Source: Clostridium sp. (lineage in GTDB: Bacteria > Bacillota > Clostridia > Clostridiales > Clostridiaceae). From it: 64,000 nucleotides of DNA. The notes beneath the pieces were generated by a model. That model saw only the letters and a program-made list of their open reading frames with translations, was not told the origin of the DNA and made no database searches. The translations under genes were made by a program, and so were the position numbers. Position 1 is the stretch's first letter; each line of letters begins with the position of its first letter. The stretch spans positions 62,001-126,000 of the forward strand of contig JARLHR010000041.1 of assembly GCA_031292145.1 (NCBI GenBank), read 5' to 3'. This document shows positions 2,944-34,745 of this stretch, in pieces.

Positions 2944-4137
2944 ATGCAATTATCAAAAAAAGCGGGGGATATCACACCATCTATCACGTTAGCTATTACA
3001 GCTAAAGCCAATGAACTAAAGAGTCAAGGCGTTGATGTAGTTAGTTTTGGAGCAGGGGAACCAGACTTTAATACACCACAAAATATAATTCAGGCAGCCA
3101 TAAATGCTATGAATAACGGGAAAACTAAATACACTCCAGCAGGAGGAATATTAGAGTTAAAACAAACTATTTGCAATAAATTTAAAAATGATAATAATTT
3201 AGAATATAAACCAAGCCAAATAATAATTTCTACAGGTGCTAAGCAATGTTTAGCAAATGTTTTTATGGCTATATTAAATTCGGGAGACGAAGTGCTAATT
3301 CCAGTTCCATATTGGGTTAGCTATCCTGAATTAGTTAAACTAGCTGATGGGGTGCCAGTATTTGTAGAAACATCTAATGAAAATAATTATAAGTATACAA
3401 TAGCTGATTTAGAAAGAGCTGTTACAGATAAAACAAAAGCAATATTAATAAATAGTCCGAATAATCCAACAGGAACTATTTATCATGAAGAAGAATTGAT
3501 GGAAATAGCAAACTTTGCAAAAGAACATGATTTATTAATTGTATCCGATGAAATCTATGAAAAATTAATATATGACGGAGAAAAGCATATAAGTATAGCT
3601 GCTTTAAATGAAGATGCATATGAAAGAACTATAGTAATAAATGGCGTATCTAAGACTTATGCAATGACTGGCTGGAGACTTGGATATGCAGCATCAAGTG
3701 AAAAAATAACTAAGCTAATGACAAGTATTCAAAGTCACATGACATCGAATGTTAATACAATAACACAATATGCAACAATAGAGGCACTAAATGGACCGGT
3801 GGAAGATTTAAACAATATGATTAAAGAATTTGAAAATAGAAGAAACTTTATGATATATAAATTAGAAAAGTTAAATGAAGTATCAATCATAAAACCTAGT
3901 GGTGCATTCTATATTATGGTTAATATATCAGCTTATCTTAATACTACTTTTAAAGAGCAAGAAATTAATAATTCAGTGGATTTTGCAAAGGTATTATTAG
4001 AAGAAGAAAAAGTAGCTGTAATACCTGGGGCTGGTTTTGGATTAAATGAGTATATAAGGTTATCATATGCGACATCTATGGACATAATAGAAAATGGAAT
4101 AGATAGAATTTCAACATTTTTAAGTAAAATTAAATAA
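2944..4137 (+). CDS. aspC: Pyridoxal-phosphate aspartate aminotransferase (class I/II fold)
   Basis: The protein has 397 residues, the normal length for subgroup I-gamma aspartate aminotransferases, which exchange the amino group between aspartate and 2-oxoglutarate. Seen in the sequence: the substrate-pocket motif SPNNPTG near residue 177, SDEIYE for cofactor contacts, and VSKTYAMTGWRLGY with the probable Schiff-base lysine at K237. An AGGAGG lies 8 bases before the ATG, and a TATAAT box is visible at 2877-2882 without a convincing -35. Substrate specificity cannot be fixed from sequence; a broader aminotransferase is possible. Confidence 0.88.
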   Translation: MQLSKKAGDITPSITLAITAKANELKSQGVDVVSFGAGEPDFNTPQNIIQAAINAMNNGKTKYTPAGGILELKQTICNKFKNDNNLEYKPSQIIISTGAKQCLANVFMAILNSGDEVLIPVPYWVSYPELVKLADGVPVFVETSNENNYKYTIADLERAVTDKTKAILINSPNNPTGTIYHEEELMEIANFAKEHDLLIVSDEIYEKLIYDGEKHISIAALNEDAYERTIVINGVSKTYAMTGWRLGYAASSEKITKLMTSIQSHMTSNVNTITQYATIEALNGPVEDLNNMIKEFENRRNFMIYKLEKLNEVSIIKPSGAFYIMVNISAYLNTTFKEQEINNSVDFAKVLLEEEKVAVIPGAGFGLNEYIRLSYATSMDIIENGIDRISTFLSKIK

Positions 4138-21574: not shown

Positions 21575-21994
21575 ATGAAATTTATTTCTAAAGTCCATGG
21601 TGAAATGCAATATGAAGAAAATAATGTAATTACTTTTAATAAGGGTATTCCAGGATTTAATGAACTAAAAAAATTTATTCTGTTAGATTTACAGGAATGT
21701 GAACCTTTTAAATTACTACAATCATTGGAAGACAACGAAATTTCATTAATAGTAACCTCACCATATGAGTTTTTTAATGAATATGAAATTAAATTAAGCG
21801 ACGAGACAATTAAAAATTTAAAAATAGATTCTCCAGAGCAAGTAATTATAGTAACTACAGTAACATTGAACTCAGATGTAAAAAAAATCACTACAAATCT
21901 GCAAGGACCTATAGTAATAAATACTTCTAATAATTTTGGGGAACAAATAATATTAGATAATTCTAAATATAAAGTTAAAAGCCCTTTAATATAA
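21575..21994 (+). CDS. fliW: Flagellar assembly factor FliW
   Basis: 139 residues. FliW binds the translational regulator CsrA and also flagellin; free flagellin displaces it so that CsrA represses flagellin translation. Family segments: [19 protein letters not shown] and [27 protein letters not shown]. It directly precedes csrA (11 bases), the standard pairing. Confidence 0.94.
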
Positions 21995-22005
21995 GGAGGC
22001 ATAAA

Positions 22006-22224
22006 ATGTTAATTATAACTAGAAAAAAAGGTGAATCTCTTATGATTGGAGAAGATATAGAAATTATTGTGAGTAAGATAGATGATGGAAGTGTTAAAAT
22101 TGGAATAAAAGCTCCAAGAGATATTCAAATATTAAGAAAAGAACTATATGAAGAAGTTGAACAAGAAAATAAAGAAGCAATGAAAATTGATATTAGTATG
22201 TTAGGTAGTATAAAGAAAAAATAG
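22006..22224 (+). CDS. csrA: Translational regulator CsrA, full length
   Basis: 72 residues. [20 protein letters not shown] has the RNA-binding L4 and R6; [20 protein letters not shown] carries the conserved R44-type arginine. The tail after about residue 55 is the extension through which FliW controls CsrA in Firmicutes. It should repress flagellin mRNA. Two shorter paralogues lie at 32238 and 32659. AAGGAGG 6 bases before the ATG. Confidence 0.95.
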
Positions 22225-22235
22225 ATTTGTTTATT

Positions 22236-22371
22236 TAGTGGAGAGTTGAGAATGGAGAGTTGAGAGTTAAGGATGTTTTTCTTCTTTGCGTTCAGAAAAA
22301 AAATGATAATTAAATTTTAGATTTTTCATAGAAAAATTAACCTAAACTCTCCACTCTAAACTCTCAACTAA
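22236..22371. repeat. Intergenic palindromic repeat, GAGAGTTG type, copy D
   Basis: TAGTGGAGAGTTGAGAATGG faces CTAAACTCTCCACTCTAAAC and CTCTCAACTA. It lies between csrA and flaG. The interior GATGTTTTTCTTCTTTGCG then TTCAGAAAAA is shared with copy G at 32985. Confidence 0.75.
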
Positions 22372-22392
22372 AAACAAGGAGGCAACATAAAC

Positions 22393-23481: not shown

Positions 23482-23641
23482 AGTTAAAGAGTTGAGAGTG
23501 GAAAGCTGAGAGTGAATGAAGAAATCCCTCGGGGATTTCTAATGAATTATTATTTTAAATCACTTTGTGATTTATTAATTCAATAACAATTGAAAATTGT
23601 TATCCTAACTCTCAACTTTCAACTATCCACTCTCAACTAAA
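23482..23641. repeat. Intergenic palindromic repeat, GAGAGTTG type, copy E
   Basis: Outer arms AGAGTTGAGAGTGGAAAGC and ACTATCCACTCTCAACTAA; inside are AGAAATCCCTCGGGGATTTCT and AAATCACTTTGTGATTT. This is the clearest example of the nested-hairpin layout. Confidence 0.8.
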
Positions 23642-23660: not shown

Positions 23661-25967
23661 ATGACAAATGCATTAGTAAGTACTAATAGTTCAGGTAGCA
23701 GTAGCAGTAGTACTTCAAGTTCGAGTGTATTAAGAATAACAGGTATGGCATCAGGTATTGATACAGATGCAGTAGTTAAATCTATGGTTTCGAGCTATCA
23801 AACTAAGATAGATAAAGCAAATCAAGCGCAACAGACTTTACAATGGAAACAAGATGCGTATAGAGATATTATAAAAGGTGTAAAAGGTCTACAGGAATAT
23901 TTCGATCCACTTTCAAGTAAGTATATATTATCGGGAAATACCATGAATATAAACTCAACTACAAATAGTGATAGTTCTAAGTTTTCTGCGACTGCTAGTT
24001 CCAGTGCAAAAACAGGAACTTATTCGGTAACTACAACACAGCTGGCAACACAGGCTAAAGTAAATGGTACTTCATTAAGTTCTTTGGTTCCAGTTGTAAG
24101 TACTGATATCACAAAGTGGAGTCAGGCTAACTTGAAGATAGGATCAACTAATGTACAGTTAGATACTATTGCAAGTGGTGCAACTTTAGATAAAGTTGTG
24201 GCAAGTATTAATAGCAAAATAGCTGCAAACACAACTTTAAATGGTAAAGTTTCAGCTTCGTGTGTAACTGATTCAAATGGTAGTTATATAAAATTTACAA
24301 ATACTAGTGGTACGACTATGGGGTTAACGGTCCAGACTTCGGGGAGTAGTCCTACAACATTAGGTTCAATTACCAGTATCAATAGTGGAATATCTTCAAG
24401 TACAAAATTATCAGACTTGGGAATTTCTAGTGGTGTGAGTTTTAGTTTATCGTATGATTCAAAGACAACAACAACACCTGTATCAATTACTGCATCAAGC
24501 ACTGATACATTACAAAATTTAATGGATAAAGTAAATAGTGCAACTAGTGGAGCAGTAGCGTTGACAATAGATGATACAACTGGAAAAATTTCATTCCAAT
24601 CTAAAGCTTATGGATCTGCTTCAGGTATTAATGTAGTTGATACGAGTGGCGTTGTATCAAAGTTAGGTATAGCTACTACTAATTCAACAGGAACAGTTAA
24701 AAGTGGATTATCCTCTACTTCTACATTGGTTTCAGATTTAGGATTTTCTGCAGGACCTATAAACTTTACATTAACTAATGGTGCTACTAATTCTACTGTT
24801 TCATTAGCAGTAGATAGCACAACTACTTTTGGAGATCTAGCTAAACAGGTTAATACTGCAACTAGTGGCGCAGTAACATTGAGTATGGATAGCTCTACAG
24901 GCAAAATTTCATTTAGTTCTAGTTCTGCTGTTAATTTAACTGATACAAGTACTAGTAATAATGTAATTACGCAGTTAGGCATAGTACCTACTACAGCTGG
25001 TACAGGAACAGACGCAATAGTATCTATTACGGCACCAGGACAAGCAACAGTGACAACTACACAAAGTTCTAATAGATTCACATCAAATGGAGTTACGTAT
25101 AGTCTTGTTAATACAGGTACTGCTACTACAACTGTAGCATCTAATACAGATACAGTAGTTAGTAATATAAAGAGTTTCATAACTGACTATAATACAATAA
25201 TATCTACAATTAATACAAAATTAACAGAAAAGAAAAATAGTGCTTATCCCCCTCTTACTGATGCTCAAAAAGCAAGTATGAGCGATACACAAATAAGTGC
25301 ATGGGAAGCTAAAGCAAAGGTTGGAATACTCAGAAATGATGATAATCTAAGCAGTATGATGACACAGCTTAGAGGAATATTTTCTTCGGCAGTTTATAGT
25401 AATTATGATAGTTCAAATTCAAGCTCAAACGCAAAAATATCACTAAGTTTTGGTAAGTATGGTACTGGTGCTATAGGTATAGATACTTCATCAGACTATA
25501 CAGATGGAGGCAAGCTTGTTCTTCAAGATGAATCAAAATTAAGAGATGCAATTACGAATAATTTTGACGATTTCAAAAAATTATTTATAGGAACTTCAAG
25601 TAAGAAATTAAGCAGTAATCAGTCTTATGTTGGTTCATCAAAATCTAAGGAAGATGGATTATTTACAAGAATGAGCAATATTCTTAGTGATTATGTAGCA
25701 ACTCCTGGTTTAGGTGCAGATGGTACTTATACGTTAGCTGGGAGTATGAATCTATTTGTAAATAAGCAATACGACTTTAGCAGTACAGGGTATTCTGGTA
25801 AAAATACCATACCTGACCAAATTTATAAACAGACCGTGAGCATTACTAACCTTAAAACTCAAATGTCAGCTGCTGAAACCAGATATTATAACAAATTTTC
25901 AGCATTAGAGTCATTGATGACTAAATTAAGTTCACAACAAAGTACGCTTTCTTCTATGCTTGGTTAG
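23661..25967 (+). CDS. fliD: Flagellar cap protein FliD, first copy
   Basis: 768 residues. After a Ser/Thr-rich start, the FliD N-domain LRITGMASGIDTDAVVKSMV spans about 24-43; the C-domain ends in QKYYNK-like coiled heptads (AAETRYYNKFSALESLMTKL). It caps the filament and guides flagellin insertion. Residues about 243-337 and 349-441 are two copies of the same internal segment (SDLG..., NSATSGAVALTIDDTTGKISF versus NTATSGAVTLSMDSSTGKISF); the second FliD at 26961 has only one. AGAGGAGTG before the ATG. Confidence 0.94.
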   Translation: MTNALVSTNSSGSSSSSTSSSSVLRITGMASGIDTDAVVKSMVSSYQTKIDKANQAQQTLQWKQDAYRDIIKGVKGLQEYFDPLSSKYILSGNTMNINSTTNSDSSKFSATASSSAKTGTYSVTTTQLATQAKVNGTSLSSLVPVVSTDITKWSQANLKIGSTNVQLDTIASGATLDKVVASINSKIAANTTLNGKVSASCVTDSNGSYIKFTNTSGTTMGLTVQTSGSSPTTLGSITSINSGISSSTKLSDLGISSGVSFSLSYDSKTTTTPVSITASSTDTLQNLMDKVNSATSGAVALTIDDTTGKISFQSKAYGSASGINVVDTSGVVSKLGIATTNSTGTVKSGLSSTSTLVSDLGFSAGPINFTLTNGATNSTVSLAVDSTTTFGDLAKQVNTATSGAVTLSMDSSTGKISFSSSSAVNLTDTSTSNNVITQLGIVPTTAGTGTDAIVSITAPGQATVTTTQSSNRFTSNGVTYSLVNTGTATTTVASNTDTVVSNIKSFITDYNTIISTINTKLTEKKNSAYPPLTDAQKASMSDTQISAWEAKAKVGILRNDDNLSSMMTQLRGIFSSAVYSNYDSSNSSSNAKISLSFGKYGTGAIGIDTSSDYTDGGKLVLQDESKLRDAITNNFDDFKKLFIGTSSKKLSSNQSYVGSSKSKEDGLFTRMSNILSDYVATPGLGADGTYTLAGSMNLFVNKQYDFSSTGYSGKNTIPDQIYKQTVSITNLKTQMSAAETRYYNKFSALESLMTKLSSQQSTLSSMLG

Positions 25968-26054
25968 TTCTATTGTTTGAACAAGTGTTTAGATGCAATT
26001 GACAGTTGACGATAATAATTATAAAGTGTTCGTTAAAATAAAGTGGGTGATAAA

Positions 26055-26390
26055 TTGAATTTAGAGGAAAGTTTTATTAAATATAAAGATATTACTTTGA
26101 CTATTATTGAGGGAGTTAAATCAGAGGAATACGAACAACTAGATGAAATATCTAATCAAAGACAATTAATTTTAGATAATATTAATAAAATTAATCATTC
26201 AAAAGAAGAATTGAAAAAGTTTTATTTGAAATATGATATAGATAAATTAGATAAAACATTAGCTTCAGAAATGAACATTAAAAGACAAGAATTGCTGGAA
26301 AAAATAAAAGAAAGCAAAAAAAGACAAACAGCCATGAATGGATATAATAGTTTATCAGCTAAAGCTGTGTTCTTAAGTAAAGAATTTTAA
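26055..26390 (+). CDS. fliT: FliT-like flagellar chaperone, first copy
   Basis: 111 residues, helical, 88 bases after fliD, the usual place for a FliT-type export chaperone of the cap protein. I choose TTG 26055 because GGGTGAT lies just upstream; a GTG at 26043 lacks a site. A near-identical copy lies at 29064 after the second fliD. Family assignment rests on position, size and helix pattern. Confidence 0.7.
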   Translation: MNLEESFIKYKDITLTIIEGVKSEEYEQLDEISNQRQLILDNINKINHSKEELKKFYLKYDIDKLDKTLASEMNIKRQELLEKIKESKKRQTAMNGYNSLSAKAVFLSKEF

Positions 26391-26407
26391 AAAGTCATGG
26401 GAAAAGT

Positions 26408-26440
26408 GAGCATGGACGCCTAGTTAAATTCAGGAGGAAT
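26408..26440 (+). promoter_or_regulatory. Flagellin-type leader with CsrA-like sites
   Basis: GC-ATGGAC-GC is a weak small hairpin with GGA in its loop (26410-26419), followed by AATTC-AGGAG-GAATT, which buries a ribosome site in a hairpin (26427-26441). The layout matches the leaders of flagellins 1 and 2. CsrA binding is inferred from the GGA-in-loop pattern. Confidence 0.5.
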
Positions 26441-26445
26441 TCATT

Positions 26446-26526
26446 ATGATAGTCAATTATAATCTCATAAAAGATAATTTAATTAGAAATGTAAATATGG
26501 GTAGCTTAGCAAGTGAAATTATTTAA
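26446..26526 (+). pseudogene. 26-codon micro-ORF resembling a flagellin N-terminus
   Basis: MIVNYNLIKDNLIRNVN resembles the flagellin start MIIGHNLMANNAIRNAN at 29908, and a flagellin-like leader precedes it. The stop lies inside a perfect terminator stem. It is probably the stump of a deleted flagellin gene, though translation of the peptide is possible given the intact ribosome site. Confidence 0.55.
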
Positions 26527-26563
26527 TTTAAAAGCAAATTAAATAATTTCACTTGTTTTTTTT
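26511..26563 (+). terminator. Strong terminator after the micro-ORF
   Basis: AAGTGAAATTATTTAATTT pairs perfectly with AAATTAAATAATTTCACTT (19 bp), then G and eight T. It ends the fliS-fliD-fliT transcript and overlaps the micro-ORF stop. Confidence 0.9.
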
Positions 26564-26762
26564 GCTCTTTTGTTAAATTATTTATTATATGATTTATATT
26601 TTTAATGCTGTATAGCTATAAATTACAATGTTATTTTTATTTTGTGAATAAAATAAATTGTAATGCTATAAAGTGTTATGATTTGTCAAACGATATATAA
26701 ATATATAATTAAAAAATATATTATTCATATTATTAAAAAATGAAATAAAAAAATGCAAAAAA
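26564..26762. other. AT-rich spacer with one hairpin and a promoter
   Basis: No gene visible. It contains ATTACAATGTTATTTT facing AAAATAAATTGTAAT (about 26624-26664) and the sigma-28-like promoter described separately. Confidence 0.4.
26669..26696 (+). promoter_or_regulatory. Candidate sigma-28 promoter upstream of fliD2
   Basis: TAAA, 16 bases, then AACGATAT. The -10 keeps CGATA of the sigma-28 consensus (the Bacillus form ends GCCGATAT) and the spacing is within range. It would transcribe the GGA hairpin leader and fliD2. Confidence 0.55.
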
Positions 26763-26792
26763 GGCATGGACGCCAAATAAAATTTAGGGAGG
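26763..26792 (+). promoter_or_regulatory. GGA-loop hairpin and orphan ribosome site
   Basis: GGC-ATGGAC-GCC places GGA in a loop, followed by ATTTAGGGAGGAATTTATT, the same layout as a flagellin leader. No start codon follows; a TTTA repeat takes its place. Confidence 0.55.
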
Positions 26793-26793
26793 A

Positions 26794-26940
<147 letters not shown>

Positions 26941-26960
26941 AAAAAGGAGGATGATTATAT

Positions 26961-28997
26961 ATGACAAATGCTTTAGTAAGTTCTACTGGTTCAAGTAGCA
27001 CCAGCAGTGGCAGTAGCACTGCAAGTTCTAGTGTATTAAGGATAACAGGTATGGCATCAGGGATTGATACAGATGCAGTAGTTAAATCTATGGTTTCAGA
27101 TTACCAAGCTAAGATAGATAAAGCAAATCAAGCAGAACAGACTTTGCAATGGCAACAAGATGCGTATAGAACTATTATAACAGGTATAAAAGGTCTACAG
27201 GAATACTTCGATCCACTTTCAAGTAAGTATATTCTATCTAGCAATTCTTTTGACACAAATACAGCTACGAATTCTAATAGCTCTGTTGTTTCAGCAACTG
27301 CTAGTTCAAGTGCAAAAACAGGAACTTATGCAGTAACTGTAGGAAATCTTGCAACACAAGCTAGTATAGAAGGCACGCCTGTAAGTTCACTGGTACAGGT
27401 TAATAATCTATCTAACTGGACTAATAGTCCAAATAAGTTAGCTTTTGATGATAATGGAACTGAGGTTGATTTATCTAATATAACTGGCACGACTACTCAA
27501 GGATTAGTAGATAACATAAACAGCCAAATTGCTTCTAGTGCTTTGAATGGCAAAGTTACAGCATCGTATGTTAAAGAAGTTACTTCATCAGGCACGACTA
27601 ACGAGTATATTAAGTTTACGCAAGCTTCTTCAAATACGGATACAATTAACATTGATAGTTCTAAAACTACTGGTATATTAGACGTAAAAAATAATACTCC
27701 TATTACTACTGGGATATCATCAAGCATGGCATTATCAACTTTAAGTAGTAACCCTATAAGTTTTAGTTTATCATATGATTCAGCAAGTACGACGACCCCG
27801 GTATCGATTGTTTCTTCAAGTACTGATACATTGCAAAGTTTGATGGATAAAGTAAGTAGTGCAACTAATGGTGCAGTTACAATGAGTATAGATGATTCTA
27901 CTGGGAAGATTTCATTTCAAACAAAAAATTCTGGTTCAACATCAGCACTGACGATAACAGATAATGGTAATTTAAGTGCGTTAGGAATTGCTACTACTAC
28001 TAATAGTACTGGTGGAACAGCAAAGAGTTCAGGAACAGATGCAAATGTAACTATTACTGAACCAGGAGGATCGCAAGTAACGACTACTGAAAGTTCGAAT
28101 AACTTTACAACAAATGGAGTCACCTATAATCTTGTCGGCACGGGGACTGCCAATACAACTGTAACAAGCAATACAGATGCAGTTGTTGCTAACATTAAGA
28201 GTTTTGTAACGGATTATAATACAATAATATCAACAATTAATACAAAGTTAACAGAAAAGAAGGATAGTGCATATCCTCCACTAACCGATGCACAAAAAGC
28301 AAGTATGAGTGCGGATCAAATAACTGCATGGAACGCTAAAGCACAGGTTGGAGTGCTTAGAAATGATGATAATTTACAGAATTTGATGACCCAACTCAGA
28401 GGAGCGTTAGCGCCGGTATACAATAGCTATAGTAGTACGAATCCTAGTACAGGAGAAGTAGCGTTAAGTTTTGGTAGTTATGGTACTAGTGCTGTGGGAC
28501 TAGACACTTCAAATGACTATACAGACGGAGGAAAGCTTGTTATCACAGATCCAACAAAGTTAGCAGATGCAATTACAAATAATCCAGATGACTTTAAAAA
28601 ACTATTTATTGGAACTTCATCTACACCTTTAGATACTACTAAGTCTTATGTTGGATCACAAACATACCAGGAAGATGGTATTTTTACAAGAATGAGTAAT
28701 ATACTTACTAGTTTTGTAGGAGACCCTGGTATAGGTACCGACGGTACTTCAACATTATCTGGAACCATGAATATATTTGTAAATAAGCAGTTCGATTTTA
28801 GTAGTACAGGGTATACTTCTGGTCAGAATACAATACCTGACCAAATTTATCAGCAGACTGTAAACATTACTAACCTTAATACTCAAATGTCTGATGCTGA
28901 AGACAGATACTATGCCAAATTTTCAGCACTAGAGTCAGCGATGAATACTTTAAACTCACAACAAAGTACACTTACATCTATGCTTGGATCCAGCTAA
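26961..28997 (+). CDS. fliD: Flagellar cap protein FliD, second copy
   Basis: 678 residues, paralogue of the gene at 23661. The first 80 residues (MTNALVSS..., LRITGMASGIDTDAVVKSMV, GLQEYFDPLSSKYIL) and the last 250 are nearly the same; the middle, which forms the exposed domains, differs and lacks one of the two internal repeats. A different cap surface, perhaps paired with a different flagellin, is an inference. AAAGGAGG before the ATG; followed by its own fliT-like gene. Confidence 0.93.
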   Translation: MTNALVSSTGSSSTSSGSSTASSSVLRITGMASGIDTDAVVKSMVSDYQAKIDKANQAEQTLQWQQDAYRTIITGIKGLQEYFDPLSSKYILSSNSFDTNTATNSNSSVVSATASSSAKTGTYAVTVGNLATQASIEGTPVSSLVQVNNLSNWTNSPNKLAFDDNGTEVDLSNITGTTTQGLVDNINSQIASSALNGKVTASYVKEVTSSGTTNEYIKFTQASSNTDTINIDSSKTTGILDVKNNTPITTGISSSMALSTLSSNPISFSLSYDSASTTTPVSIVSSSTDTLQSLMDKVSSATNGAVTMSIDDSTGKISFQTKNSGSTSALTITDNGNLSALGIATTTNSTGGTAKSSGTDANVTITEPGGSQVTTTESSNNFTTNGVTYNLVGTGTANTTVTSNTDAVVANIKSFVTDYNTIISTINTKLTEKKDSAYPPLTDAQKASMSADQITAWNAKAQVGVLRNDDNLQNLMTQLRGALAPVYNSYSSTNPSTGEVALSFGSYGTSAVGLDTSNDYTDGGKLVITDPTKLADAITNNPDDFKKLFIGTSSTPLDTTKSYVGSQTYQEDGIFTRMSNILTSFVGDPGIGTDGTSTLSGTMNIFVNKQFDFSSTGYTSGQNTIPDQIYQQTVNITNLNTQMSDAEDRYYAKFSALESAMNTLNSQQSTLTSMLGSS

Positions 28998-29005
28998 TAG
29001 AATAC

Positions 29006-29043
29006 AATTTGCAGTAGACAACAATCATTGTCTACTGTAAATT
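29006..29043. repeat. Hairpin between fliD2 and its fliT-like gene
   Basis: AATTTGCAGTAGACAA faces TTGTCTACTGTAAATT, a 16-bp stem with one G-U pair and a 6-base loop. No T tract follows, so it may stabilise or process the mRNA. Confidence 0.6.
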
Positions 29044-29063
29044 AAAATAAAGTGGGTGATAAA

Positions 29064-29399
29064 TTGAATTTAGAGGAAAATTTTATTAAATATAAAGATA
29101 TTACTTTGACTATTATCGAAGCAGTTAAATCAGAGGAATATGAACTGCTAGATGAAATTTTTCAGCAAAGGCAGTTAATTTTAGATAATATTAATAAAAT
29201 TAATCATTCAAAAGAAGAATTGAAAAAGTTATATTTAAAATATGATATAGATAAATTAGATAAAACATTAGCTTCAGAAATGAAAGTTAAAAGGCAATAT
29301 TTGTTGGAAAAAATGAAAGAAAACAAAAAAAGACAAGTAGCAATGAATGGATATAAAAATTTATCCGCTAAAGCTGTGTTCTTAAGTAGAAAATTTTAA
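29064..29399 (+). CDS. fliT: FliT-like flagellar chaperone, second copy
   Basis: 111 residues, about 85% identical by eye to the protein at 26055 (shared NINKINHSKEELKK and YDIDKLDKTLASEM). It follows the second fliD, so the two genes were duplicated together. The same GGGTGATAAATTG start context is kept. Confidence 0.7.
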   Translation: MNLEENFIKYKDITLTIIEAVKSEEYELLDEIFQQRQLILDNINKINHSKEELKKLYLKYDIDKLDKTLASEMKVKRQYLLEKMKENKKRQVAMNGYKNLSAKAVFLSRKF

Positions 29400-29747: not shown

Positions 29748-29837
29748 TTAAAGTAGGACAAGTAACTAACTCAAAATAACCAAAGAGAATTTGAAAGTTA
29801 TAGGAAAATGAGATAACTCTCAACTAAAAATGCTAGT

Positions 29838-29904
29838 AGGCTCAAAGAGCTTAACTATAAATAAAAACGGGCAAGGATGCCCTATGAAATTCAAGGAGGA
29901 ATTT
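29838..29904 (+). promoter_or_regulatory. Flagellin 1 leader with three hairpins, two exposing GGA
   Basis: Hairpin 1 is AGGCTC-AAA-GAGCTT (29838-29852). Hairpin 2 is GGGC-AAGGAT-GCCC (29869-29882) with AAGGA in the loop. Hairpin 3 is AAATTC-AAGGAG-GAATTT (29887-29904), whose loop is the ribosome site. Two GGA loops, one over the ribosome site, is the arrangement CsrA uses on Bacillus hag mRNA. Binding itself is inferred. Confidence 0.7.
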
Positions 29905-31422: not shown

Positions 31423-31893
31423 CATTTAAAGAAAGAATACAAGAATAAAGATACTGGTGAGATAGAAAAAATAACTTATTATCACACGGTATTAGAAGCT
31501 AAGCTTATTTTAGGAAATATGATATTTAGTATATTAACTGAATTTGTAGAAAATGAGAACGAAAGCGTTAGCAAACAAGATTGTGAAATAAATGCAGCCA
31601 AAAGACTTATGAAAAAATTGAAGTATAAGTTTAGAAAGCTTAATATCTGCATTTTAGGTGATAGTCTTTATGCTTGTGAACTAATTTATAAATTATGTGA
31701 TGAGTATAATTGGAAATTTATCTTTAGATTTAAAGAAGGAAGAGCAAGAACACTTTGGGAAGAAATTCAAACCATAAAAAGTATTGAAAATAATGAAGAG
31801 ACATCTACTTTAACTTATAAAAGTGATGCTTTAGATTGGAAATTAACTTACATAAATGAGGTTTCATATAAAAATATATCGATTAACCCTTAA
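31418..31893 (+). pseudogene. Transposase remnant
   Basis: An open stretch without a valid start, HLKKEYKNKDTGEIEKITYY onward, continues into 124 residues with LNICILGDSLYACELIYKLC and KFIFRFKEGRARTLWEEIQ, a pattern I associate with DDE transposase-like proteins of clostridia. The N-terminus is missing and the reading frame stops early at 31893. No terminal inverted repeats are evident. It lies right after the flagellin 1 terminator. Confidence 0.6.
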
Positions 31894-32001: not shown

Positions 32002-32029
32002 TAAAGTTAAAAAAGGAAACTGTCAATAG
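32002..32029 (+). promoter_or_regulatory. Candidate sigma-28 promoter of short csrA gene 1
   Basis: TAAAGTTA begins the element and TGTCAATAG follows 15 bases after TAAA. Its layout matches the stronger promoter of the second unit at 32422 (TAAAGTTA shared), supporting a common origin. Confidence 0.5.
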
Positions 32030-32137
32030 AATAAGTATAATTAATACAAATATTAATTTAAAAAAGTTAATAAAAACTATTAAGTTTTTGTTAGATTTTA
32101 CGAAGTTAATAATAAGTAATTAAATACAATAACTATC

Positions 32138-32210
32138 ATGGATGATTAGTAAAACTATCTAACTTTGCAGGAGGCGAATGAGAGATGGATTTATTAATCA
32201 TCCATTTTTA
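32138..32210 (+). promoter_or_regulatory. Terminator-like leader with inner AGGA hairpin, unit 1
   Basis: Outer arms ATGGATGATTAGTAAA (32138) and TTTATTAATCATCCAT (32190) pair over 16 bp and are followed by TTTTA. Enclosed is TTTGC-AGGAG-GCGAA (32164-32178), with AGGA in the loop. It sits between the sigma-28-like promoter and the csrA-like start, so it may terminate, attenuate or act as a small RNA of about 175 bases. Confidence 0.7.
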
Positions 32211-32237
32211 TTGCTCAAAATTCAAGGAGGAAGAAAT

Positions 32238-32393
32238 TTGTTAGTATTAGGCAGGAAGCCGGGAGAATATGTAGTGATTGGCAAAAACATTATAGTTAAA
32301 GTAATAAAAAGTGAAAATGGTGATTTAAGACTTGCCATAGATGCACCAAGTAATATTAAGATTACTAGAGGTGAGGTTTGGAAAGAAGAATAA
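32238..32393 (+). CDS. csrA: Short CsrA paralogue 1
   Basis: 51-52 residues from a TTG start, with AAGGAGG 8 bases upstream. MLVLGRKPGEYVVIGKNIIV keeps L4 and R6; LAIDAPSNIKITRGEVW keeps the second RNA-contact arginine. The threonine usual at position 5 is glycine. It ends right after the core fold and lacks the C-terminal extension of the full-length CsrA at 22006. A longer reading starting at 32178 has no ribosome site and runs through the leader hairpin. Confidence 0.85.
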   Translation: MLVLGRKPGEYVVIGKNIIVKVIKSENGDLRLAIDAPSNIKITRGEVWKEE

Positions 32394-32421
32394 AAAATTG
32401 AATATTTTTTAAAAATAAGTG

Positions 32422-32448
32422 TAAAGTTACAAAAAACGCTATCGATAA
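32422..32448 (+). promoter_or_regulatory. Sigma-28 promoter of short csrA gene 2
   Basis: TAAA, 15 bases, ATCGATAA: six of eight -10 bases match the sigma-28 consensus, with exact spacing. It lies 28 bases after the first short csrA stop. Confidence 0.75.
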
Positions 32449-32556
32449 TATAAATATAGTAATTAAGGATATTAATCCTAAAAAAGTAAAAAAGCACTAA
32501 AGTTCTAATTAAGCTTTACGATAGTAAAAGTATAATAATTAAATAGGCTAAATATC

Positions 32557-32629
32557 ATGGACGATTAATAAACTTATCTAAATTTGCAGGAGGCAAATGA
32601 GAGGTAGGCTTATTAATCGTCCATTTTTT
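32557..32629 (+). promoter_or_regulatory. Terminator-like leader with inner AGGA hairpin, unit 2
   Basis: Outer arms ATGGACGATTAATAA (32557) and TTATTAATCGTCCAT (32610) pair perfectly over 15 bp, then five T. Inside is ATTTGC-AGGAG-GCAAAT (32582-32598). Compared with unit 1, a T-A pair has become C-G in the outer stem and a G-U has become A-U in the inner stem, so the structure is conserved by compensating change. Confidence 0.75.
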
Positions 32630-32658
32630 ATTATTCAGAATTCAAGGAGGAAGAAAAA

Positions 32659-32820
32659 ATGTTAGTATTAGGCAGGAAGCCGGGAGAATATGTAGTAATT
32701 GGAGATAAAATCAAAGTTAAGGTAGTAAAAAGTGAAAATGGTGATTTAAGACTTGCCATAGATGCACCAAGGGATGTAAAAATCACTAGAGGTGAAGTTT
32801 GGGAAGAAGAACAAAAATAA
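32659..32820 (+). CDS. csrA: Short CsrA paralogue 2
   Basis: 53 residues from ATG, with AAGGAGG about 8 bases upstream. MLVLGRKPGEYVVIGDKIKV and LAIDAPRDVKITRGEVWEEE keep both RNA-contact arginines. It is nearly identical to the protein at 32238 (differences mainly at residues 16-22 and the tail) and likewise lacks the C-terminal extension. The tandem arrangement with duplicated promoter and leader shows a recent unit duplication. Confidence 0.88.
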   Translation: MLVLGRKPGEYVVIGDKIKVKVVKSENGDLRLAIDAPRDVKITRGEVWEEEQK

Positions 32821-32882
32821 CCATAGATACAAAGTAGACAAGCTAGTTGACTATCAACTTTCGACTAAATTTAATATTTAAA

Positions 32883-32953
32883 GCTCAGGACGAGTCAATT
32901 ATTCTAGGGATTTAAGCAGGACGCTTAAAAAACTAGAATAGTTGACTTTTTTT
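32883..32953 (+). ncRNA. 3' structure with two AGGAC loops ending in a terminator
   Basis: CTC-AGGAC-GAG (32884-32894) is followed by GTCAATTATTCTAG pairing with CTAGAATAGTTGAC, which encloses TTTAAGC-AGGAC-GCTTAAA (32911-32929); seven T follow. It is the third terminator in a row built around an AGGA-loop hairpin. Whether it is only the csrA terminator or also a CsrA-titrating RNA cannot be told from sequence. Confidence 0.6.
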
Positions 32954-32984
32954 AATTTAGTTAATAAGCTAAAGGACTTTTTAT

Positions 32985-33120
32985 AATTGAGAGTTGAAAG
33001 TTGAGAGTGGAGAGTTAAAGGATGTTTTTCTGCACTTTGTTCAGAAAAACTGATAATTAAATTTAAAAGATTTTTCACGGGAAAATCAATATCTACTTTC
33101 TAAACTCAATTCTTAACTAA
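32985..33120. repeat. Intergenic palindromic repeat, GAGAGTTG type, copy G
   Basis: TTGAGAGTTGAAAGTTGAGA faces TACTTTCTAAACTCAATTCT; the interior resembles copy D (GGATGTTTTTCTGCACTTTG). It lies directly before the flagellin 2 leader. A half copy (ACTCTCAACTAAAAATGCTAG) sits at the same place before flagellin 1 near 29816. Confidence 0.7.
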
Positions 33121-33129
33121 AATTGCTAG

Positions 33130-33203
33130 TAAACTCAAAGAGTTTAACTATAAATAAAATAACAGTGGAAAAGGAAGTCCACTTTAAAATCAAGGAGGAA
33201 TTT
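33130..33203 (+). promoter_or_regulatory. Flagellin 2 leader with GGA-loop hairpin
   Basis: Hairpin 1 is TAAACTC-AAA-GAGTTTA (33130-33146). Hairpin 2 is AGTGGA-AAAGGAAG-TCCACT (33164-33183). The ribosome site lies in AAAATC-AAGGAG-GAATTT (33186-33203), one mismatch. Both upper stems differ from flagellin 1 by paired changes. No sigma-28 box is convincing upstream. Confidence 0.7.
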
Positions 33204-33206
33204 ATT

Positions 33207-34745
33207 ATGATAATCGGACACAATTTAATGGCAAACAATGCAATCAGAAACGCAAATTCTAATGCTACAGCAGCAAGTAAATCAATGGCAAAACTTGCTT
33301 CGGGTAATAGAATCACTACTGCAGCAGATGATGCAGCAGGACTTTCTATATCTGAAAAGATGAAAGGTCAAATCAGAGGCTTAGACAAAGCTTCATCTAA
33401 TGCTCAAGATGGTATTTCATTAGTACAAACAGCTGATGGTGCTTTAAGTGAAACTACTTCAGTTCTTCAAAGAATGAGAGAACTAGCAGTTCAATCATCA
33501 AATGACACTAATACAACAGCTGATAGACAGGCTATACAAGTTGAAACAGACCAGTTAACTAAGCAAATAGACAATATAGCTAATACAACTCAATTTAATA
33601 CTAAAAATTTATTGGATGGTACTTTAGCAGGGAATATCACAGGACAAGGTTCAGTTGCTCAAGGTACTGCATCATTAACTACTAGTAATGTAGCTACTAC
33701 AGTTGTAGCTGGAGTTTCAGGAGTAGCAACCGATGGTAAGGTTGGAACTCATACAATAGGTTTAACTGTCGGTGTTTCTGGTCAGTTAACTTCATCAATG
33801 ACAGTTTCAGCGTCGCAAACATTAGCATCATTAGGTGTACAAAACGTGGGTACCTTAACAGTTGGGGATGTAGGATCTGAAGCAGCATTTGGTGCTACAC
33901 TAACATCAAATAGTACGGTTCAAGATTTTATGACTGCTGTAAATGCATCTGGTACTGCGACAGCTACAATCGATCAAAACAATAAGTTAGTAATTGCTTC
34001 TAAAACTAACGCGGGTGTAAATTTAGATATAACAGATGCAACTGCTACAGGTGATTTTGTTTCTACAGTATTTGGTGGTACTAGTGCAGCTGGTACTACT
34101 AAAGCAACGTCAACAAATGCTAGTGCAACTAATTTAACTGTAACTGATACATTTACACCAGTAGGTTCTTCAACTGCTGTAACAACAACTGATAGAACTG
34201 GTTATGCACCTACAGCAAGTACTACTATTACTTTAGGTGCTGGTAGTAACGCTCAAGGAATTAAAATTAATGTAGGAACTGGTGGAGCAACAGCAGCTAC
34301 TTTAACTGTTAATACACTTGCTAAACAAAATTCAGTTGCATCTCATACTGATAGTTCATTAGCAATGCAAATTGGAGCAAATTCAGGTCAAACAATGAAT
34401 GTATCAATTAATAGTATGACAGCATCAGCTTTAAATGTAGATTCTTTGGATTTAACTACACAAACTGGTGCAGAAGCTGCAGTTTCTTCTATTGATGCAG
34501 CAACAGCAAAAGTTTCTTCTGAAAGATCGAGACTTGGAGCATACCAAAACAGATTAGAAAGTACAATAAATAACCTTGGAACAACATCAGAAAACTTAAC
34601 ATCTGCAGAATCATCAATTACAGATGTAGATATGGCTAAAGAAATGTCAACATACTCAAAGAATAATATTCTTTCTCAGGCTGCTCAAGCTATGATTTCT
34701 CAAGCTAACCAACAGCCACAACAAGTTCTTCAATTATTAAGATAA
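33207..34745 (+). CDS. fliC: Flagellin 2
   Basis: 512 residues. The first 130 and last 90 residues are nearly identical to flagellin 1, at DNA level too, while the middle (about 135-410) is unrelated in detail and longer, with many Thr/Ala/Ser repeats. This fits gene conversion of the ends with free drift of the exposed domain. ATG 33207 is chosen for the AAGGAGG context. Confidence 0.96.
   Translation: MIIGHNLMANNAIRNANSNATAASKSMAKLASGNRITTAADDAAGLSISEKMKGQIRGLDKASSNAQDGISLVQTADGALSETTSVLQRMRELAVQSSNDTNTTADRQAIQVETDQLTKQIDNIANTTQFNTKNLLDGTLAGNITGQGSVAQGTASLTTSNVATTVVAGVSGVATDGKVGTHTIGLTVGVSGQLTSSMTVSASQTLASLGVQNVGTLTVGDVGSEAAFGATLTSNSTVQDFMTAVNASGTATATIDQNNKLVIASKTNAGVNLDITDATATGDFVSTVFGGTSAAGTTKATSTNASATNLTVTDTFTPVGSSTAVTTTDRTGYAPTASTTITLGAGSNAQGIKINVGTGGATAATLTVNTLAKQNSVASHTDSSLAMQIGANSGQTMNVSINSMTASALNVDSLDLTTQTGAEAAVSSIDAATAKVSSERSRLGAYQNRLESTINNLGTTSENLTSAESSITDVDMAKEMSTYSKNNILSQAAQAMISQANQQPQQVLQLLR

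Follow-up and report, generated by a model that had tools for sequence, protein, structure and literature searches.

Two short csrA genes ahead of a flagellin gene

We analysed a window of 64,000 nt from Clostridium sp. (GCA_031292145.1, contig JARLHR010000041.1, positions 62,001–126,000, forward strand); the coordinates below are positions in this window, and the fliW, csrA and flagellin genes, promoters and hairpins 1–3 described lie on its plus strand. A fliW–csrA pair (21575–22224) comprises fliW (21575–21994) and, 3' of it, an ordinary long csrA of 72 aa (22006–22224). Ten kilobases further on are two units, each made of a leader and a short csrA, then a third hairpin and a flagellin gene (33207–34745, named by sequence recognition). 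Short csrA 1 (32238–32393) encodes 51 aa from a TTG start and short csrA 2 (32659–32820) encodes 53 aa. Both products belong to the Pfam CsrA family PF02599 (E 1.6e-18 and 2.1e-21; 66.8 and 76 bits, cut-off 27), in agreement with the original prediction of two CsrA-like genes of about 52 codons. They stay under the NCBIfam equivalog cut-offs (TIGR00202, 52.4 and 53.9 versus 70.1; NF002469, 50.6 and 59.5 versus 73), both of which the 72-aa CsrA passes.

Each unit had been credited with a sigma-28-like promoter. Promoter pattern scans found that of unit 2 (32422–32448), with two occurrences of the pattern in the window versus a mean of 0.00 in shuffles. The candidate of unit 1 (32002–32028; TAAAGTT, 17-nt spacer, TCAATA) is weaker than claimed: recognised by sequence and absent from the scan list, it has the same −35 as unit 2, one extra spacer base and TCAATA. 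A second sigma-28-like promoter lies near hairpin 2 (32498–32524, scan score 12/14). With its TTG start, weaker promoter and longer tree branch (0.29 versus 0.025), unit 1 is apparently less well kept, and its hairpins are intact. Directly 5' of it is a transposase-like fragment (31519–31893; DDE_Tnp_1_4, 29 bits, below the Pfam cut-off of 34.7).

In Campylobacter, FliW binding requires V51 and N55, and in Bacillus it requires N55 too (PMC7829508). The window's long CsrA has both residues. Among distinct CsrA-like proteins (13 of 148 were dropped for want of the anchor motif), the V/I51 and N55 pair was present in 0 of 94 GRKP-type proteins, the window copies included, versus 38 of 41 other CsrAs, and the three others without it are GRK-L or GRN-L types. 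It was likewise found in 0 of 73 unfiltered loci, L027 having N55 alone. The 94-protein set had been filtered on R6/R44-type residues and is circular as a test of them; in the unfiltered proteins, R6, which we take to be an RNA-contact arginine, is kept in 73/73, and the R44-type R-G/S-E in 73/73, as well as in both window copies. R44 is described as an RNA-contact arginine of CsrA in PMC7829508. As the RNA-binding face is kept and the FliW contact is lost, the short CsrA should not respond to FliW in the way expected of the long one. A CsrA tree had too few columns to settle origins, and a single clade of short CsrAs was not rejected (AU p 0.76).

Both short csrA frames contain an in-frame hairpin, GGC-AGGAA-GCC, at 32250–32260 (over the G-R-K-P codons of csrA 1) and 32671–32681. 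Clostridial G-R-K-P codons are the rare GGC AGG AAG CC, which yield this AGGAA-loop hairpin in 20 of 25 sequences picked as clostridial, versus 0.05 expected from codon usage when kinship is ignored. As a universal feature the coding hairpin was ruled out, with 19 of 72 GRKP loci having it overall.

A terminator-like hairpin with a GGA site at its foot

The leaders share a long terminator-like stem of about 28 bp with a U-run and an AGGA apical loop. Hairpin 1 (32138–32209; apical AGGAG loop 32169–32173, T-run) was recognised by its fold, a covariance model, a fold scan and its relatives, and hairpin 2 (32557–32629; apical AGGAG loop 32588–32592) also ends in a T-run. Folding gave −30.3 kcal/mol (z −6.4) for 32138–32205 and −33.0 kcal/mol (z −8.8) for 32557–32624, bearing out the two leaders with stem, AGGAG loop and T-run that had been read from the letters. 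The third terminator with an AGGAC hairpin, also foreseen, lies in the csrA–flagellin gap (32887–32953; apical AGGAC loop 32918–32922; z −5.5) and was matched at 32885–32965 (E 3.8e-6) by R2, a covariance model built from 21 plus-strand matches that included both window leaders and excluded hairpin 3. Since R2 finds all three hairpins and a model-free fold scan agrees, we treat them as one element. Over all 64 kb, a scan for hairpins with a GGA loop, 18 bp or more and a T-run returned three plus-strand matches, namely hairpins 1–3, and one unrelated minus-strand match.

Hairpins 1 and 2 are 90% identical over 81 columns; the compensating changes claimed between them amount to one pair changed on both sides, while five are changed on one side. 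Across 21 elements, two-sided changes occur in 18 of the 26 stem pairs, with 97.8% of cells paired and 0 of 500 shuffles as high, in an alignment fitted to the model. At Rfam thresholds a known RNA family was ruled out: Rfam 15 gave no match over any gathering cut-off in the whole window, nothing on the element in seven loci at E up to 1, and only scores far under the cut-offs in the element region at E up to 10. Searches of the open literature, which includes the C. difficile papers PMC8523840 and PMC11898703 and few subscription papers, turned up no description of a csrA/hairpin/flagellin module, in line with the original prediction, which knew of no described Gram-positive example of the layout.

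The 5' strand of the terminator stem starts UCAnGGAyGA; the foot of the stem is itself a second CsrA-consensus hairpin, UC-AnGGAy-GA. A GGA stands at the foot of 96 of 109 elements, and generic terminators from these loci have one in 205 of 1222 cases; for CA(N)GGA the counts are 72 of 109 and 25 of 1222, near-identical relatives included. This sequence resembles the CsrA SELEX consensus RUACARGGAUGU (PMC7652899). In the window, foot hairpin 1 (32132–32150, TGGA loop) is a member of the conserved class; foot hairpin 2 (32554–32565, ATC[ATGGAC]GAT) is weak, with 3 bp, and does not form in the best fold predicted for the still incomplete RNA; and foot hairpin 3 is GCTC[AGGAC]GAGT (32883–32895). 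The last had been taken for a separate further AGGAC hairpin; it exists, and it is the foot of element 3.

We asked how well the foot is conserved as a hairpin. The 108 feet reduce to 87 distinct ones, or 83 by a shorter key, of which one falls outside both loop classes. A stem of 3 bp or more forms in 72 of 87 distinct feet and one of 4 bp or more in 61 of 87; the other 15 feet stay below 3 bp. Among 7666 other GGAs the corresponding shares are 18% and 8%, and of 243 generic terminators that have GGA at the foot, 44 and 19 reach these lengths. The two foot arms pair over 3.87 bp on average versus 2.98 after arm swaps (maximum of 1000 swaps, 3.39), and the third pair is formed in 47 of 57 and 25 of 25 feet of the two loop classes, versus shuffled means of 29.4 and 18.8. 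The covariation score of the foot lies above all 500 shuffles, which ignore kinship, and above all slides. Pairs changed on both sides were not in excess (2 versus 2.1 shuffled; elsewhere 157 of 500 shuffles as high), as only four short pairs were tested, and further pair types stand out weakly (matched or exceeded in 41 and 6 of 500 shuffles). Pairing of the upstream foot arm with the 3' strand of the terminator showed hardly any excess (3.16 versus 2.96 swapped; largest swapped mean 3.20).

Recurrence of the element beside short csrA genes

To follow the element beyond the window, we compared the short CsrA with one genome per species (84,980 species), obtained 102 related stretches and retained 80 loci. 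Most counts refer to 73 of these (L010–L082), GRKP-type or one letter off; the other seven, two GRKP by letters (L083, L084) and five of other types (L085–L089), have the element in 0 of 7 cases. The final fold scan used five window sizes and required a GGA in a loop no longer than 8 nt, a stem of 18 bp or more and five or more T in seven. With these settings, an element lay between −450 and +650 of csrA in 64 of 80 loci, all 64 among the 73. It was upstream of csrA in 57 loci, downstream in 35 and on both sides in 28, with up to three elements per locus. An earlier scan with one fold window per GGA found it upstream in 27 loci, downstream in 23 and on both sides in 6 (54 near csrA, 9 far); the near/far contrast was stronger in this one-window scan, and coverage was greater in the five-window scan. 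A covariance model, R1, matched the plus strand at E up to 1 in 62 of 80 loci (counted from the match list). Such recurrence across Firmicutes in both the model search and the fold scan rules out chance or a merely local duplication. The scanned interval held no element in 9 of the 73 loci (L030, L034, L058, L061, L067, L073, L074, L076 and L077), the elements of L076 sitting just outside it.

The stems and U-runs are of the typical terminator kind, and one could read the element as an ordinary terminator in which the GGAs are incidental. We consider this very improbable: on the csrA strand there are 109 matches in 86.9 kb near short csrA versus 39 in 529 kb elsewhere, a 17-fold difference; the opposite strand has 16 in 616 kb and none near csrA; and the GGA foot with its hairpin is conserved beyond generic terminators.

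The hosts include Clostridia, Bacilli, Paenibacillaceae and Negativicutes, so the observation is larger than first noted, the element being neither local nor clostridial only. In another genus of the phylum (L156), the order is sigma-28-like promoter, element, short csrA, element, flagellin. Of 31 whole genomes, mostly picked for a short csrA, 28 gave R2 matches to the element; two of these (G067 and G084) have identical places, apparently being one genome, and L006 lies inside L040, so that 28/31 reads as 27/30. Most matches were a few hundred bases at most from a csrA. Among the stronger copies, the motif was not seen apart from csrA or flagellar genes; its occurrence unlinked to csrA or flagellin genes was the outcome that the original prediction had named as speaking against it. 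Three stronger copies unlinked to csrA precede a fliD-like gene, where the element has a sigma-28-like promoter of its own (L150), a flagellin gene (L152) and, in a decayed form without AGGA, a flagellin-type gene (L151), all named by recognition. There are also three weak unlinked matches (G070:C19, G079:C97, G071:C57), and more weak copies may exist, as 150 candidates were scored per genome of hundreds to thousands.

Within the genus the distribution is patchy. R1 matched 2 of 68 genomes, PF02599 matched 50 of 68, and by open-frame length alone the short second csrA type occurs in 4 of 68 (G000, G001, G065 and G067), among which G065 has no R2 match. A survey of the phylum with R2 matched 2 of 299 genomes, the window's own and G185, a weak guide to absence, as 15 candidates were scored per genome out of hundreds to thousands.

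A flagellin gene starts within 1.2 kb downstream of the short csrA in 67 of the 73 loci. Of 67 loci, 30 have a sigma-28 match (score at least 13/14) ahead of csrA and 37 have none at that score; in 3 of the 67 a match falls in the csrA–flagellin gap, versus 1.65 expected from the background rate, and two of these three (L031 and L070) precede a second csrA. At a looser score of 11, matches were upstream in 45 of 73 loci and in between in 12. Judged from this layout, transcription of flagellin in many loci appears to require that polymerase pass through one to three elements, and plain efficient terminators would block this passage; alternatively, flagellin may have a promoter of another type.

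Tandem csrA genes recur as well, a second csrA-like ORF lying within 1.3 kb upstream in 27 of 73 loci in a relaxed scan, with a few more seen. Tandem short csrA pairs, often diverged, are common (L013, L015, L022, L046, L053, L062 and others), and heterodimers are possible. In L022, a flagellin C-terminus match falls into two pieces on either side of a group I intron (2982–3330; RF00028, E 9.7e-23), which suggests that the flagellin gene is split.

Possible attenuation or titration by CsrA-type hairpins

The 3' arm of the foot hairpin is at the same time part of the terminator 5' strand, and the two structures are therefore mutually exclusive. In predicted nascent RNA (4 of 112 elements dropped), 82 of 108 elements have an open foot GGA as long as the terminator 3' strand is lacking, and 1 of 108 (>0.5) once it is present; an open base at that stage is true of any hairpin, and what is particular here is the CsrA-type site in it. 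The apical GGA is predicted to be unpaired (>0.5) in 96 of 108 finished hairpins, 29–34 nt from the foot (10th–90th percentiles, n=108). As the foot site is buried by termination, this points to read-through when CsrA is bound. We therefore propose, at a probability of roughly one half, that the hairpins are CsrA-responsive transcription attenuators controlling the FliW-blind csrA and flagellin, in which CsrA on foot and apical sites would probably give read-through.

RNA from the sigma-28 promoter would first form the small foot hairpin, GGA in its loop, and about 31 nt later the apical hairpin with AGGA in its loop. A CsrA dimer on both would keep the foot closed and its 3' arm out of the terminator stem, so that polymerase would continue into the short csrA and then flagellin. 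With no CsrA bound, the long stem would form and transcription would stop close to the U-run; judged from promoter and U-run positions, the resulting leader would measure very roughly 100–180 nt. The foot hairpin is much less stable than the terminator (about −30 kcal/mol), so that CsrA would need to act co-transcriptionally. The folds, the covariation, the exclusion of one stem by the other, gene order, promoter-like sites and loss of FliW residues are direct results of computation; from them we infer CsrA binding, actual termination, read-through upon binding and which CsrA acts, and the direction of the effect is read from the layout.

The original prediction had left two options, titrating small RNAs or CsrA-operated attenuators. 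Titration, the chief rival, would make the terminated leaders and the 3' end of the csrA mRNA sigma-28-dependent small RNAs that soak up CsrA and free flagellin translation after hook completion. The open apical GGA of the finished hairpin fits such a role, as do the promoter-to-element distances of 18–48 nt in 23 of 30 cases, which imply short RNAs, the presence of several elements in one locus, and the stand-alone promoter and element before the fliD-like gene of L150. Each terminated RNA would nonetheless offer one open GGA, its foot GGA buried, unlike multi-site sponges; a sponge would have little use for serial terminators ahead of csrA and flagellin, and the covarying foot hairpin would need a separate reason. 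We retain titration as an unlikely explanation, and attenuation is favoured by the anatomy, namely one to three terminators between the csrA-side promoter and flagellin together with a covarying, exclusive foot hairpin.

CsrA is known mostly as a repressor, and its binding might instead promote termination or shield the RNA 3' end, in which case csrA and flagellin would be under negative feedback. The E. coli pgaA leader sets a precedent (PMC7652899), CsrA at two sites there blocking a hairpin and promoting Rho-dependent termination. The pgaA leader resembles the present element in its two sites and altered transcript elongation and differs in that termination here is intrinsic and predicted to be prevented. 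Binding at a conserved foot site that termination buries should oppose termination, and the apical site is available in both states; termination favoured by CsrA thus seems to us quite improbable.

Other known systems share features with the element. In the RAT antiterminators of LicT/BglG, a protein-binding hairpin overlaps the 5' strand of an intrinsic terminator and the gene of the protein is adjacent. The present element likewise has a conserved antiterminator-like hairpin overlapping the terminator 5' strand, weakly so in window unit 2, and an adjacent gene for the candidate binding protein; it differs in its CsrA-type protein, two GGA hairpins and much smaller antiterminator stem, and its effect on read-through is predicted. 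With the FliW–CsrA–Hag system of Bacillus subtilis and Clostridioides difficile it shares CsrA sites in the flagellin leader, a csrA adjoining flagellin and late flagellar control, and the window genome likewise holds fliW and a long csrA; different are the second, short CsrA without FliW contacts and the two-GGA terminator-like hairpins before csrA and flagellin. CsrB/RsmZ sponges of Gammaproteobacteria also present GGA in hairpin loops to a CsrA without FliW contact, whereas here there is one open GGA per finished hairpin, in cis to flagellar genes and behind a sigma-28 promoter.

Together, these data suggest that the element and the short csrA form an undescribed RNA switch for flagellin. 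A fuller claim, which we make tentatively and at somewhat under even odds, is that of a new Firmicutes RNA family in which FliW-blind CsrA is a true antiterminator at intrinsic terminators, a positive-feedback csrA/flagellin switch that would work in one cell beside the ordinary FliW–CsrA translational switch. In the review PMC7366521, CsrA antagonism is divided into two mutually exclusive mechanisms, sponge RNAs or FliW-like proteins; here, one genome holds a FliW-type CsrA and a CsrA without FliW contacts, the latter with its own conserved RNA element. If attenuation is correct, this would be a CsrA-driven intrinsic-terminator switch, of which we found none in the open literature. The arrangement suggests how several flagellin genes in one bacterium could be controlled separately, and the element is present in cultured relatives, with units in Clostridium ljungdahlii and C. 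folliculivorans.

Translational feedback may be added by GGA sites, which lie at Shine-Dalgarno regions and also, in many clostridia, within the reading frame of the short csrA. Both window flagellins have a GGA-loop hairpin just 5' of the Shine-Dalgarno sequence AAGGAGG (29869–29882 and 33164–33183). The latter, next to the AAGGAGG at 33192–33198, makes a hag-like candidate CsrA site pair, and both leaders are much like the two-site Bacillus hag leader (PMC7652899). Similar leader sequence occurs in many, not all, of 20 csrA-to-flagellin stretches compared, the Paenibacillus ones differing. Another small hairpin, for example GGTAATAAGCC...GGCTTGTTATAAATA, followed by TATAAATA, is found in both window flagellin leaders (29832–29863 and 33125–33156) and in several relatives' leaders.

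Two kinds of repeat were also noticed in the window. A fliD-like gene (by recognition) and a 115-aa gene form a tandem duplication (23661–29399, 75–89% identity in the repeats found). A repeat of about 130 nt (22241–22375 and 32989–33118), which has GGATGTTTTTC as its core and GAGAGTTGA close to one end, sits in flagellar intergenic gaps, including that between csrA 2 and flagellin, and a stretch near 23484–23640 has, by eye, ends like those of this repeat.
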